Origin: Sipunculus nudus
Taxonomy: Eukaryota; Annelida; Sipuncula; Golfingiida; Sipunculidae
Assembly (NCBI GenBank): GCA_026874595.1
Contig: CM049313.1
Span: 33,166,008 to 33,230,007, forward strand
Length of the DNA: 64,000 bases
Direction of reading: 5' to 3'
In this document: one piece after another, positions 16,017-61,453 of the stretch
Position numbering within the stretch: position 1 is the first letter of the stretch
Layout: every line of letters starts with the position of its first letter
Translations under genes and position numbers: made by a program
Notes under the pieces: model-generated
Told to the model about the DNA's origin: nothing
Databases searched by the model: none
The model's input: the letters and a program-made list of their open reading frames with translations, nothing else

Positions 16017-17608
16017 TTAAGTAAAGAAGCGGTGTATATCTAATTGCTTGCATCTATGACTTGAAGCGCGGTCTCGGATGTATCTCAGGACCGAAAGGTG
16101 TAGAGGATCTGTGTCAGACAGGCTTTCCATCCATGAGATGAGGCTCTCAGCGCACTGGAAGGCTTGAGTTGCTGTTGGTGGAGGGACACTCTCTCCATCA
16201 TCATCATCCTCTGACTCGTCAGCTGTGTCGTTTACAGGTGTCATGACTGAGTTTACAATCTCTTTGTCCGACAAGTGTGATGTAGTGGCCACACTATCAT
16301 CACAATGTAACCAATTGCTAACATCGACAGCTGAACAGGCAGGATCCATTGCCGATGCCAGCGGTGTCAGCTCTGCTACCGCCTCTTCATCAGATTCAGC
16401 CCTGGATGCTGGCTGGTCATTTTCTGTAAGGATTGTTCTTTTCCAGCACTTAAAGATGGTGGCCGGTTTCACCTCATTCCACGCAGATCCTAGCATATTC
16501 ACGGCGTCACGCATGTTGATCATTTTCACTCGGTCCAACATAGAAAGTCCTGCATCAGAGTCATCTAGTAGCTTTGCCAGCAGCCGCTTGCAGTAACGTC
16601 TCTTCGTGCATTCAATGATTCTGGCGTCACAAGGCTGGATTTTACTTGTGCAGTTTTTGGGAAGGAATAAACATCAGATGTTCCCATCGACGGTGCACAT
16701 TTCTTTCTCCGGGGGATGCTCTGGGCAGTTGTCTACAAGCAGCAGCGCACAAGCTGGTGTCTTCTTCAGGGTTTCCCGGGAAAATCTTCGAACAGATGGC
16801 ACGAACTCTTGGTGAAACCAGTTTGTGAACACGTGTCTACTCATCCACGCAGTTTTCTGAGCTTCATAAGCGACTGGTAAATTCGACATCTTGACATGTT
16901 TGAAACATCGCGGTTTGACGGACTTGCCGATCACCAGGGGGCGTATCTTGTGGTCACCTGCTGCGTTGCAACAGTTATGCTGTTATGCGTTCTTTGCATA
17001 CTTTGTGTCCTGGGGCACTTTTTTCTGTGGAGTCAGCTAGTGTTTTGTTCGGCAGAATTTTCCAGTAGATCCCGGTTTCGTCAGCGTTGTATATCTGGGC
17101 GTCAGATAACCCCTCGCGTTCCTGCAGCTCGCGCACTCTGGACCTGAATCTCGCTTGTGTCAGCTGAAAGTGACTCCCCTTGTACCTCAAGTTGGCGTAT
17201 GCCGTGTCCCTCTTTAAAATGTCTCACCCAACCAGATGAAGCTTTAAACTTGCTCTCGCTGCCGTTGAGTTTTAAATCAAATGCTGAAGCCTTCTCCATC
17301 AATATTGGTCCAGATATGGGGCTCCCTTTCGACCGCTCCTGGATAAACCATGTGTACACAGCAGTCTCTAGCTTCTCGTCGGCCGCAGTCTGCATGTGTT
17401 TACGTCTCTTTGATTCAGGGGTATCAGGCAACTTCATCTTGTATTCGACAAGTTTCTCTTTGTTATTTTTTATATCGGTAACTGTGGACCTGCCAATGTT
17501 GAACTCCCTTGCGATGTTTGCAGGCTTGTCATCTCGGTCGAGCCGCTCAAGGATTGTCAGCTTGTCATCAAAGCATAACGCCGTCCTTTTTCTCTTCTTT
17601 GACTCCAT
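16017..17608 (-). pseudogene. Tigger/jerky-type transposase, broken
   Basis: It starts at the Met of MESKKRKRTALCFDDK (codon 17606-17608). Domains in order: a CENP-B/Psq N-terminal helix-turn-helix (LTILERL...NIAREFNIGRSTV), a CENP-B-type second HTH (about 17240-17400), and a DDE_1 catalytic core with YNADETG, LLLVDNCPEHP and SKIQPCD carrying the three expected acidic residues. An acidic Ser/Asp/Glu-rich tail ends at 16017. Breaks: a frameshift near 17150 before the catalytic core, another near 16978, and an in-frame TGA at 16674-16676 within the core. Such transposases cut and paste elements into TA sites. Related host genes (CENP-B, jerky) are intact domesticated copies; this one is not. 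Confidence 0.9.
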
Positions 17609-18299
17609 ATCTCTGGTAAGTGACAGCAAGACGATCGTGTTTGAGTTGTGTTCTTCTTGACAGTAAATATGAATGAATAAGCTGAATTATAGCGAGTTTA
17701 AGTAGATGACACAATTGCTCTTTGGATTGAACTGCTCATTTGTATGGCCAGGCCCGCATGCTATGGCCCGCACCTAAACCTGTTCGAGCACAAGCGTTTA
17801 ATGAATGATACCTCACAAATGATGATGCGAGTAAACTGCTCAGTTATTTGGCCTGACATCCTATCCCAAGCCTATGAAATATGCTTGCTTGAGTACAAAC
17901 AAGATGTGGTTGATAACACACAAGTGCTCACTGATAAAGTACTCAGTCTCTTGCTAGGGGTACAGGGAGCCGAGCGTTGCGCAGCTTAGGGTCACTACTG
18001 GGCTATACATGACTGCAGGCCTTGGGACTAATCTTATTAGGTATTTACATACTTGAAATATATTTCGGAAATACAAATAAATTTTCGGTTCCCCCATTTT
18101 AATTTTCGGAAAAACAAATTCTCGGAAATTCAGCATTCGGAAATACGGCGCTCTACTGTATAAAATAATTTTTTTTATTTCCACTTTTCCTCTTATTTTC
18201 TAGTCACAAGTGCAGAAATATCAATATATTCAAAGTTAAATTTATAATTTTGAATTCAATATCACAGATGCAAATGATACCCTAGCTTATTTAATACCC

Positions 18300-56754: not shown

Positions 56755-56939
56755 GTGGACAATTAGTGTAATTGGATGTTAATTTTGAAGGCAGGGCACC
56801 AGTCTGCGGCACGTGACGGGCGGTCACACGTGACCGCCAGTCATGTGACTTAGTTGTGCTGGGTTGGGATATTTTCCTGGATGGGGCATTCTGCAAATCT
56901 CAGCCCAGGCGGGCAGATAGAATCTACAACTGGCAACCC
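56755..56939 (+). repeat. Ngaro split repeat A1
   Basis: Matches A2 (60879-61066) almost base for base from 'gtggacaattagtgtaattg' to 'ctggcaaccc'. A2 has one 3-bp insertion (extra CAA). Substitutions cluster in the central hairpin. It forms the left end of the element. Confidence 0.93.
56810..56847. repeat. hairpin in A1
   Basis: Nested inverted repeat: outer arms CACGTGAC and GTCATGTG (one mismatch), inner arms GGCGGTCAC and GTGACCGCC (perfect), loop AC. The equivalent in A2 is at 60934-60971. It may be a recombinase site or an RNA structure; neither is shown. Confidence 0.7.
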
Positions 56940-58280
56940 AGAAAACTGTCTAAGATAGCAACTCAAGAGAAAGGAGATTCATCCAACGCACCCCCATTAT
57001 CGCCCGCCGAACGAATTAAAGCCTGGGCTGAGGATCACATGATAGATGCGGCTTCAGTGGATCTACTTGCCAAACATGGATTCACATCTATCCAAGCCCT
57101 ACAGTTACTGGAGGCAGAAGATCTTCCTCAGAAATTGCCAAGAGGGCAACAGAAGTTAATTCTGAAGGCAGTCGGCTCGCTCCAAACACATTCACAGCGA
57201 ACTGTACCACATGTTCCAGCCATGCCACAAGCGGCCCTTCAGTCGCCCATTATGCAAGCGGCCCAAGATCAACAACACAATATGGCCGCCACGCAGGTAG
57301 AAATCCCAAGTATCTCCACGCCGGGTACACCTCTAAACAATACATCAAATACCGGGAGGATAGCAGCAGGGGAGGATCCATACACAGCCGAAATTCTGGG
57401 ATTGTACCAACAGTCGCAACAAGGAACCCAGAGAGAGGGACCATCATCCGCCATACCTGAAGCCGCCGCCATTGTGGGTCAACAACGTGATGACTGTCCC
57501 CAGGGCCAAGAGATGCTCCTCCAGGCATTAACGCACATGGGACTCATATCTGCGGATAGCCATGCGGATTTATCCAGAAACAGAACGGCCACAAGAAGAT
57601 TAGATAATCATCCCGCTGTCAACGACGTCTCGTGTATCGGCCCACAGATCCACTTGAACTCTTTGTCTCAAGGTAGGTCCCCTAAGTTTCTAGACATAAC
57701 CGATTTTGTTGACTACGCGGGGGCCACCCAAGAAACGGTGGTTTTGCTTCAAATGATCACAGGGGACAACCCCAACTTTTGCTTAGGGCGGGAACTAGAA
57801 AACCGAAAATTGATACAATCACACTTGGACAATGGTCTCTTGCTAATCTGGCTATCATGAAAGCCTTGTTGGCGGATGAGTCTTTAAATGGACAACAGGG
57901 TATGACAGATTATCTTTCACACACTTCACGTGTATACCCTCTTGAAACTGCATGAGCAGACCTCAGTGTGTCTTTGGGACCACGAATATCGCAGACTTCA
58001 ATCTATTCTCAACTTTAGATGGGGTACAGCAGTGGCCCACCTTCAGGCTGCATGGCTCCGCCCCAAACAACTTGCTTACCTCCCAACCAGACCCCCACGT
58101 CAACAAAATCAGTTTCGTCCTAGGGGACCCCTGAGCACAAACAATGTTGAAATATGTAGAGCATACAACTCCAGAGCAGGATGCAAGTATAGGAATTGTA
58201 AATTTGCCCATACATGTGCTCACAATGATTGTGCCCAACCGCACCCAGTCTGGAAGCATGGTGTAGAGAATTCTGAATAG
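56856..58280 (+). pseudogene. Ngaro ORF1, Gag-like protein with CCCH-type motif, frameshifted
   Basis: A continuous frame runs from inside A1 to 57860. No ATG is obvious at the 5' end (the first codons follow a GTG at 56856), so the true start is uncertain. The N-terminal part has a SAM-like helical stretch (AERIKAWAEDHMIDAASVD and following residues) and then a Gln/Pro/Thr-rich linker. Near 57832 the frame shifts by one, and near 57929 it shifts back, so the protein resumes in its original frame. The end carries C-x8-C-x4-C-x3-H followed by another C/H pair, the metal-binding knuckle typical of Gag in DIRS-order elements. The frame stops at TAG 58278-58280 and is in the same phase as the following RT frame. 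Confidence 0.85.
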
Positions 58281-60651
58281 CTACAGCATCATATTGCTAA
58301 CTATCACAATAGCCTGATAGCGGATGCATGGTCATATTATTTAGATAATGACATTGACAGAGATTATATCATGAAAGGAGTGATACAGAGTTTTGATATT
58401 GTTGATAATAGTGCAGTTCCACTACAAACGTATGTAAAAAATCATAGCTCAACAAAGCAATTTGATAAACTTGTTCATGATCAAATCACAACAGAAGTAG
58501 CTTTTGGCAATTATGAATTATGTACTACCAAACCTGTTATTATCAGCCCACTTGGGGCCATACCTAAGACAGATGGGTCAGTAAGATTGATCCATGATTG
58601 TAGCGTCCCACCAGGGGCAGCAGTAAATGACTATGTACTGGAGGTTAGTAAATGTACATTTAAAACTGTTGATGATGCTGCATCATTATTGACTAGCAAT
58701 TGTTTTATGGCAAAAGTAGACCTTAAGTCTGCCTACAGGTCAGTTAGGATAAGCAAGCATAGTCAATTGTTTACTGGTTTAAAATGGCAAGATAAATATG
58801 GTAAACCCATATATCTCAGAGATACTAAACTCCCATTTGGCTCAAGAATGGCGCCAAATATATTTCAGAGACTTTCACAGGCAGTCACCAGGATTATGTC
58901 AAGATTAGGACACGACAGGGTTGTAGCATATATATTTAGATGATTTCTTAGTGATTGGTGACACGTTTGAAAGTTGTAAAGCTAGCTTAAACACACTCAT
59001 CCAGGTTCTGCGGCAACTAGGCTTCAGTATTAACTGGAACAAGGTCGTTGACTCATGTCAGCCATTAACTTTTCTGGGGGTCCAGTTAGATTCTGAAGAC
59101 ATGGCTCTCAGTATCCCCCGAGATAAACTGCAGGATTTGAAGTTAGAGCTTTTATCCTTAAGTCAGCTTCACAGTGTCAAAAAGGCAAATTCAGAGTGTA
59201 GTAGGTAAGCTTAACTGGGCCAGCGCTGTCATTAGAGGTGGACGAGTGTTTCTCCGCCGGCTGATTAATGCAGCAAACAGCATGAAAAAGAGTTCTGACA
59301 GACGGCGTCTGTCATCAGAAACACGTGAAGATGTTAAATAGTGGTTGGCATGCATGTCAATGTTTAAGAACTGGTCACTCATTCTTAACCCATCCCCAGT
59401 CACCGGGCTGTACACTGATGCATGTGATGAAGGGGCTGGGGGGTTGTATAAGGGGGACTGGTTTTATTGGTCATTTGACCTCCCTTCCTGCACAAACTTG
59501 CATATTAATAGTAATAGTAAGGAAACACTGGCAGTAATACTTGCAGTGCACCGCTGGAGCCCACACTGGCAAAACAAAAGAATTTTGGTGCTATCAGATA
59601 ATAAAACAACAGTCGCCACCATCAATAAAGGTACCTCCCGCAACTCTTTTATCATGGGAGCTCTCAGAGGTCTTTTTTGGTTGTCAGTAGTATACAACTA
59701 CACCATTAAGGCATGTTATGTACCAGGTAGATTTAATGTGGTGGCGGATTGCTTGTCAAGGTTGCATAGTAAGACCCACAGGGAGAACTTTAAGCGTTAC
59801 TGGCCTGAATTGCCCATTCATGTACTATCATACCATATGTCTTATAAAGCTGCTAAAGTTTTTTTTGGCAGGACCAGTACAGAGAGCACCAGTGCAGCTG
59901 AGAGAGGAGTTGGATAGACTGGTGGGGACCTACATAGGTCAGGCCCTCTCAAGAGCAACAGTCAACACATAGAAACATACCTTAAATCTTACATGTCCTT
60001 CTGTACCTCTTTGTCCATTCCTCTGGTCCCCCTAGATGCCTTAAATCTGCAAAGGTATATAGCCTTTCTGGCCTCCAAGTTAAAATTTAGCTCCCTTAAG
60101 TACACTCAACCTGTCTCAATCCAGGGACCTCAAATCTAGTGCCTGCTTCTGCCTCAACCCCCCATTCAGGACATTGTCTTGTCAGGAGTGATCTGTCCTT
60201 TTTCCCAAACTTTGTGTTGTTACAAATCAAGAGTACAAAAACCATTCAATGTAGAGAAAGGAAGCTGCACATTCCACTCCCCCGCATTCCAGGGTCTTAC
60301 CTTTGCCCTGCCCAGGCGCTCTTGCTCCTCCTGAAAGTTACTTCATCACCCAAAGACTCCCCGGTCTTTCTGTTCAAGTTGAATTCGAAGCTACAGGTGA
60401 TGACTTATAAATTATTCATAGAACAGTTGAGATCCTCCCTTAGCCGCATTGGTATCTGCCCTCAAGACTTTGCAGGTCATAGTTTTAGGAGGGGTGGGGC
60501 CACACTAGCACTGAAGAGTGAAGTACCAGTAGACCTAATCAAAATCCATGGAGACTGGGCTAGCCAGGCTTACCAAAGGTACCTGGCCCCAAACTTGCAG
60601 GATAGACTTAAGGTAGCATGGGCATTAAAGCATCAAGCAGAAATTTTGTAA
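58281..60651 (+). pseudogene. Ngaro pol: reverse transcriptase - RNase H - tyrosine recombinase, broken
   Basis: Open from the codon after the ORF1 TAG; the first ATG is at 58371. RT motifs: SPLGAIPKTDGSVRLIHD, the first catalytic Asp in AKVDLKSAYRSV, and LPFGSRMAPNIFQ. RNase H carries its four acidic positions (YTDACDEGAGG, SKETLAV, LSDNKTTVA, VVADCLSR). The C-terminal tyrosine recombinase keeps HSFRRGGATLA, IHGDW and the AYQRYL tyrosine. Breaks: a frameshift in the TA run at the YxDD motif (about 58935), another near 59190, a TAG at 59338-59340, a shift at the T-run near 59860, another near 59960, and an internal deletion near 60130. The deletion removes the core-binding part and the first catalytic Arg segment of the recombinase. 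Such proteins copy element RNA to circular DNA and insert it by site-specific recombination. Confidence 0.92.
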
Positions 60652-60664
60652 TTAAGGGAACAGG

Positions 60665-60712
60665 TGTTATATATATATATATATTTAATATTATTATTTT
60701 TTTTTTACTACA
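60665..60712. repeat. TA microsatellite and T-run between pol and B1
   Basis: (TA)8-like run at 60669-60684 followed by a T9 tract. It lies between the recombinase stop codon and repeat B1. Confidence 0.85.
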
Positions 60713-60736
60713 TCCTACCTGGTTTGGGCTGGTTTG

Positions 60737-60878
60737 GAGGAATGTTTACATATTGTTATTGGATTGTATGTGTCAAGCCCAGCAGGCACCAGCAAGATTA
60801 GCCTCTGCAGAGGAAATAAACCTTAAGCCCAAACCAGTGTCTTGTGTTTATGCATGCTTGATCTGCCTGAGAAATTAA
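60737..60878 (+). repeat. Ngaro split repeat B1
   Basis: Matches B2 (61320-61453) from 'gaggaatgtttacatattgt' to 'gcctgagaaattaa', with two small indels (6 bp near 60803 and 2 bp near 60862). It carries AATAAA at about 60817 and may hold the RNA 3' end signal. Confidence 0.92.
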
Positions 60879-61066
60879 GTGGACAATTAGTGTAATTGGA
60901 TGTTAATTTTGAAGGCAGGGCACCAGTCTGTGGCACGTGACGGGCGGTCACGTGTGACCGCTAGTCACGTGACTTAGTTGTGCTGGGTTGGGATATTTTC
61001 CTGGATGGGGCATTCTGCAAATCTCAGCTCAGGCGGGCAGATAGAATCTACAACAACTGGCAACCC
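60879..61066 (+). repeat. Ngaro split repeat A2
   Basis: Second copy of A, directly abutting B1. The hairpin at 60934-60971 has perfect outer arms (CACGTGAC/GTCACGTG) and one mismatch in the inner arms, the reverse of the state in A1. Confidence 0.93.
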
Positions 61067-61319
61067 CCACCCACCCACACCTATTTTACTTAAGCTTTCT
61101 AGTATCTGACGAATTATATACCCCTGCAGGGGTTGCTTTGTACAGCAGGAGTTGCTTTCCATGATTTTGCTGCTTGTTCTTAATGTTATTTTTCTTAGTT
61201 TAGTTAAGTAGTTTTCAATGGTAGTCTTCTCTAAGGTTTATTTCTGCCTGGATCACATTATGCACTATGTCTAATATATATAATCTGTATATTGTCTTGT
61301 ATACTTAATGTGATATATT
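61067..61319 (+). other. A2-B2 spacer of the Ngaro element
   Basis: About 250 bp of non-coding DNA between the right-hand repeats, beginning with a CCCACC-type tract. It is not repeated elsewhere in the element. Confidence 0.6.
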
Positions 61320-61453
61320 GAGGAATGTTTACATATTGTTATTGGATTGTATGTGTCAAGCCCAGCGGGCACCAGCAAGATTAGCTGGGGAAATAAACCT
61401 TAAGCCCAAACCAGTGTCTTGTGTTTATGCATGCTTGATGCCTGAGAAATTAA
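61320..61453 (+). repeat. Ngaro split repeat B2 (right end)
   Basis: Second copy of B, ending 'gcctgagaaattaa'. The homology stops abruptly at 61453, which I take as the right end of the element. Confidence 0.9.

Follow-up and report, generated by a model that had tools for sequence, protein, structure and literature searches.

How does a retrotransposon that carries the same poly(A) site twice come to yield an RNA that would extend to the second one? The question is raised by an element in a 64,000-nt stretch of Sipunculus nudus DNA (the window), in which two direct repeats, A and B, are laid out around the coding region as A1–ORFs–B1–A2–spacer–B2.

The repeat search aligned A1 (56755-56930) with A2 (60879-61054) over 176 nt at 97% identity, and B1 (from 60737) with B2 (from 61320) over 66 nt at 98% and 56 nt at 96%, at a spacing of 583; gapped alignment extends the A copies to 56939 and 61066 and the B copies to 60878 and 61453 (Table 1). 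In the gapped alignment, the two A copies differ by six transitions, at least half of which fall in CpG, and one 3-nt gap, a divergence that indicates an insertion of moderate age, and the two B copies differ by one substitution and eight gap columns. Both repeats lie far beyond chance since clean-ended copies of each occur at other places in the genome, and the clean left end of A1, GTGGACAATTAG, is common to other genomic copies. A comparison of the flanks of this copy (...AAATTTTTTG and TTGGCC...) revealed no target-site duplication. The four split direct repeats, the abutment of B1 and A2 to the base and the A2–B2 spacer of roughly 250 bp that a preliminary description had proposed are all borne out, the spacer measuring 253 bp, whereas its designation of the element as complete holds for the repeat frame but not for the reading frames, which are broken.

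Table 1. Features of the element, in window coordinates.
Feature	Position	Strand	Basis or content
Entire element (degenerate Ngaro), A1 to B2	56755..61453	+	Repeats, domains, ends shared with other copies
A1, left terminal repeat	56755..56939	+	Repeat search and gapped alignment
gag remnant, CCCH-type zinc knuckle near its end	56988..58280	+	39.9% identity to gag of relative L040
Reverse transcriptase (RT), two frames	58305..59184	+	PF00078 and comparison with relatives
RT end and RNase H, in-frame stop near 59340	59174..59875	+	PF17917 and comparison with relatives
Tyrosine recombinase (YR) remnant	59927..60651	+	PF00589 and comparison with relatives
Stem arm 1 (CTGGTTTGGGCT), unique segment just 5′ of B1	60719..60730	+	Arm comparison across families
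B1 repeat	60737..60878	+	AATAAA at 60815, arm 2 (AGCCCAAACCAG) at 60826-60837, then GU-rich tail
A2 repeat, adjoining B1	60879..61066	+	Repeat search and gapped alignment
C-rich box (CCCACCCACCC type), A2/spacer border, not after A1	61064..61076	+	Family comparison
A2–B2 spacer, 253 bp	61067..61319	+	Also in two solo A–spacer–B copies
B2 repeat	61320..61453	+	AATAAA at 61392, arm 2 at 61403-61414, no arm 1 ahead

The coding region retains matches to all three of the activities previously attributed to it: RT (PF00078, E 1.6e-7 and 4.2e-7, in two frames), an RNase H-like domain (PF17917, E 3e-4) and a tyrosine recombinase (PF00589 at 60100-60648, E 0.003), the last lying in the same orientation and in place of a DDE integrase. 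Relatives in the same genome carry a gag ORF with a terminal zinc knuckle, an RT–RNase H ORF and a YR ORF. In the window copy, gag has no start codon left and is disrupted in its mid-part, and RT contains two frameshifts, with a stop codon ahead of RNase H. Its YR, which shares 55.6% identity over 171 aa with the 349-aa YR ORF of relative L040, has lost about 78 aa between 60109 and 60130 and keeps the HxxR motif (GHSFRRG). The copy is therefore a dead element, with gag and RT frameshifted and YR partly deleted.

We assign the element, with near certainty, to the Ngaro superfamily of tyrosine-recombinase retrotransposons, in which it is an ordinary, degenerate member. PAT elements of the DIRS group share the split direct repeats and the YR but carry a methyltransferase domain (PMC4157794), which separates PAT and DIRS from Ngaro in the available parts of the literature (PMC4157794, PMC9210276). 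A Pfam search of the window element returned no methyltransferase match, and the interval between the end of the RNase H match (59875) and the start of the YR match (59927) offers no room for such a domain, which rules out PAT. The placement in a "Ngaro/PAT branch" made in the preliminary description thus stands for Ngaro, on repeat order, RT/RNase H and YR, and falls for PAT. A DIRS1-like element, with inverted terminal repeats and an internal complementary region, was also rejected because the ends carry direct repeats only; the sole long inverted pair arises where a palindrome inside A is matched with the second copy of A. Nor does the element show the full identical end repeats, DDE integrase and target-site duplication of an LTR retrotransposon.

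Within the 1.43-Gb genome, the window family is sparse, its A or B repeats matching at about a dozen places, and related RT and YR matches number more than 100, a lower bound. The family, with its few copies in this genome, may plausibly be new. The order A1–ORFs–B1–A2–B2 is also found in L035 and L040, and the relatives retrieved from the host genome, the search that had been suggested for this locus, carry neither LTRs nor inverted terminal repeats. Immediately downstream of YR, 11 of 12 top-ranking YR loci carry a B1/B2 pair whose starts are 526-624 bp apart, and the sequence after A2 spans 179-292 bp in relatives where A1 is comparable. The A2–B2 spacer is regularly present in the clade, as its comparison with relatives establishes, and A2 and B2 belong to the element. 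Two solo A–spacer–B copies were detected (C4:71966078 and C9:11067840; spacer identity 88 and 92%), as was one A...YR–B copy without A2–spacer–B2. Although A–spacer–B thus also occurs alone, it is very improbable that A2–spacer–B2 is a second element, nested or in tandem behind an A–ORF–B element, because the same junction, order and spacing recur across unrelated families, which identifies the module as group architecture and the solo copies as by-products. Recombination between two A...B units, by YR or by homology, could have generated both the solo copies and the copy lacking A2–spacer–B2. A distant Ngaro family has 3′ ends at 21 places, C17:32023301 among them, that are almost identical to one another, a sign of recent spread. 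An RT search of IMG/VR for relatives outside this genome returned none.

Two further features are shared by most families. The C-rich box where A2 meets the spacer, which reads as a strong G-quadruplex motif on the opposite strand, is present in the window element, L035, L055-L064, L066, L068 and L071, and TCAC[GA]TGA-type E-box palindromes occur in the A repeat of the window element, L035, L055-L063 and L068, where they are perhaps a shared promoter element. Elsewhere, the window contains a tandem satellite array from about 37426, whose ~116-bp unit is repeated 49 times or more; many units share 99-100% identity, and diverged units make up a higher-order pattern. It also holds a DDE_1 transposase remnant of pogo/Tigger type with CENP-B_N and HTH_Tnp_Tc5 (16017-17686, minus strand) and a tRNA-like Rfam match (RF00005, 13826-13887, plus strand, 32.7 bits, near threshold) that may be a SINE or a pseudogene.

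The two B copies differ in their surroundings by a conserved inverted repeat, one arm of which (arm 1) lies upstream of B1 and is absent upstream of B2, while the other (arm 2) lies inside B. Arm 1 is located 11-16 bp before B1, and arm 2 12-18 nt past the poly(A) signal in families with an identified signal. The core of arm 1, GGTTTGGGC, precedes B1 and its reverse complement, GCCCAAACC, lies within B, in these families 12-17 nt from the beginning of AATAAA. The inverted repeat is present in eight families, compensatory changes included, and B itself is unalignable between families, except for L060 and L035. Genome-wide, the main arm pair at this spacing gives 19 matches, 18 of which lie just downstream of a YR match, and control patterns with reversed arms or swapped order give 0 matches each. 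The match not beside a YR (G000:C4:9699255-9699382) is itself a palindrome, long and almost perfect. Variant arms still pair: CTGGGTTTGGG/CCCAAACCCAG at 5 places, GGTGTTGGGCT/AGCCCAACACC at 21 places and GTGTGGTTTGG/CCAAACCACAC in L066 and L071. Among seven distant 3′ ends chosen before inspection for the stem, three (from two families) possess it, L067, L068 and L070 do not, and in L069 a weak candidate of 9 bp is all that was seen. Neither arm is present in L067 and L068. The candidate stem of L087 is imperfect. The arm pattern yielded 15 matches in IMG/VR, which we judged to be about chance level.

Over the eight families, the 11-bp helix comprises four pairs with double changes, its covariation score exceeds those of all 500 shuffles, and 92% of cells are paired, versus 17-56% in slid controls. 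The alignment is small and hand-anchored on the arm cores. All its rows come from related elements in a single genome, and the changes counted can therefore not be taken as independent. In local folds, arm 1 is the partner of arm 2 of B1 with P 0.86-1.00, whereas arm 2 of B2 pairs with its own upstream stretch at 0.00-0.23; for the window element, the B1 stretch has a z of -2.3 and the B2 stretch of -0.3. When the whole 3′ module is folded, the partner of arm 1 is arm 2 of either B1 or B2, depending on the family: B2 is favored in the window element (P 1.00), L060 (0.89), L064 (0.84) and L066 (0.83), and B1 in L057 (0.96), L058 (0.84) and L063 (0.83). In most families, the predicted stem can join the unique segment 5′ of B1 to the cleavage zone that B1 contains, and B2 has no such partner beside it.

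B, with its AAUAAA, cleavage zone and GU-rich tail, reads as a poly(A) site in full that occurs twice per element, although no canonical AATAAA was found inside B of L065. In the model proposed for this group, parts of the repeats pair during reverse transcription. An RNA running from A1 to B2 would be copied, the B1–A2 junction would provide the sequence by which the two ends are joined into a circle, which YR would insert. The spacer, which is unique to the A2–B2 gap, persists in many copies, from which we infer that the copied RNA was read past the B1 poly(A) site and probably ended at the like site in B2. We tentatively favor, at somewhat less than even odds, that the stem would form once B1 is transcribed and hide the B1 poly(A) site, so that transcripts would run on and full-length RNA would end at B2. 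Because the whole-module fold is undecided between the B1 and B2 partners, masking would rely on the order of transcription, in which B1 comes first. The lack of arms in L067 and L068, the weak candidate in L069 and the imperfect one in L087 speak against masking. It is possible, though we put it forward with reserve, that at least one large Ngaro clade uses a stem by which the B1 poly(A) site, and not that of B2, is silenced, as a split-repeat answer to the retroviral two-LTR problem. Retroviruses choose between poly(A) sites in two LTRs, and the HIV-1 polyA hairpin is involved in this choice (cf. PMC3432602). We regard the hairpin as a works-like analogy only: both cases combine a repeated poly(A) site, an upstream copy that is (here, putatively) ignored and a local RNA stem, but the HIV-1 hairpin lies inside the repeat and is present at both ends, whereas here one arm lies outside the repeat and accompanies the upstream copy only.

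The main rival to masking, which we consider rather unlikely, is a role of the stem in reverse transcription. After transfer of the cDNA from A1 to A2, the polymerase copying back into B1 would be stopped at arm 2, where the 5′ end of the cDNA would lie if the RNA 3′ end is in B2; alternatively, synthesis would switch from B1 to B2 at arm 2, the spacer would be copied and the circle closed. Such a role agrees with the location of arm 2 at the expected RNA 3′ end and with the restriction of the stem to B1, and regaining the spacer needs a stop or a switch there, but the polymerase would already have passed the same stem during its first passage through B1. It is improbable that the RNA 3′ end, at arm 2 of B2, folds back on arm 1 to prime reverse transcription or to join the two B copies. 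The whole-module folds that favor arm 2 of B2 are in line with such a fold-back, whereas those of other families favor B1. Priming at arm 1 would also produce copies without A2–spacer–B2, and 11 of 12 YR loci keep this module; self-priming there is therefore unlikely, as the spacer would be lost. We likewise see little chance that the arms are protein binding sites or shared ancestral sequence whose complementarity serves no function. The cores GGTTTGGGC and GCCCAAACC are indeed identical in several families, and related elements can covary without structure; however, the arms of L056, L064, L065 and L066 differ and yet pair, and the covariation score tops all shuffles and all slid versions.

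The architecture described here agrees with that of known elements. Ngaro elements of Cafeteria (PMC8547959) and Xenopus (PMC9210276) have, in the available parts of these sources, the same A1–[ORFs]–B1–A2–B2 order, gag, RT/RNase H and YR, and no methyltransferase; these parts mention neither a spacer of ~250 bp nor a stem at B1 only, and write B1A2B2 as if contiguous. Isolated AB repeats reported in the same parts for Cafeteria Ngaro (PMC8547959) resemble the solo A–spacer–B copies. Similarly, VIPER of Trypanosoma cruzi shows A1 ... B1–A2–B2 as here, and SIRE, which consists of A2, a unique stretch of ~30 bp and B2 of VIPER, is like the solo copies (PMC6681497). VIPER and SIRE differ in their much shorter spacer, in ORF order and in RT lineage (PMC6681497). 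The SGNH hydrolase ORF of known Ngaro elements is absent from the window family and present in L069 (C5:33698900), where a GDSL/SGNH hydrolase ORF (105-641; PF13472, E 7.7e-8) lies downstream of YR, as in amphibian Ngaro.

The literature searched yielded no description of such a stem for Ngaro, although an earlier mention may exist; as far as this literature shows, the B1 stem may be the new part of the finding, and it is the part worth following. As far as the same literature shows, the split-direct-repeat mechanism rests on models that have been proposed, not on experiments. The spacer naturally marks copied RNA that runs past B1 to B2, and the B1-only stem provides a concrete, testable candidate for site choice or circle closure. 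A search by the arm pattern alone located Ngaro 3′ ends across 1.43 Gb of genome, one of its 19 matches being unexplained, and as a signature the pattern could help to annotate Ngaro elements and their true ends.
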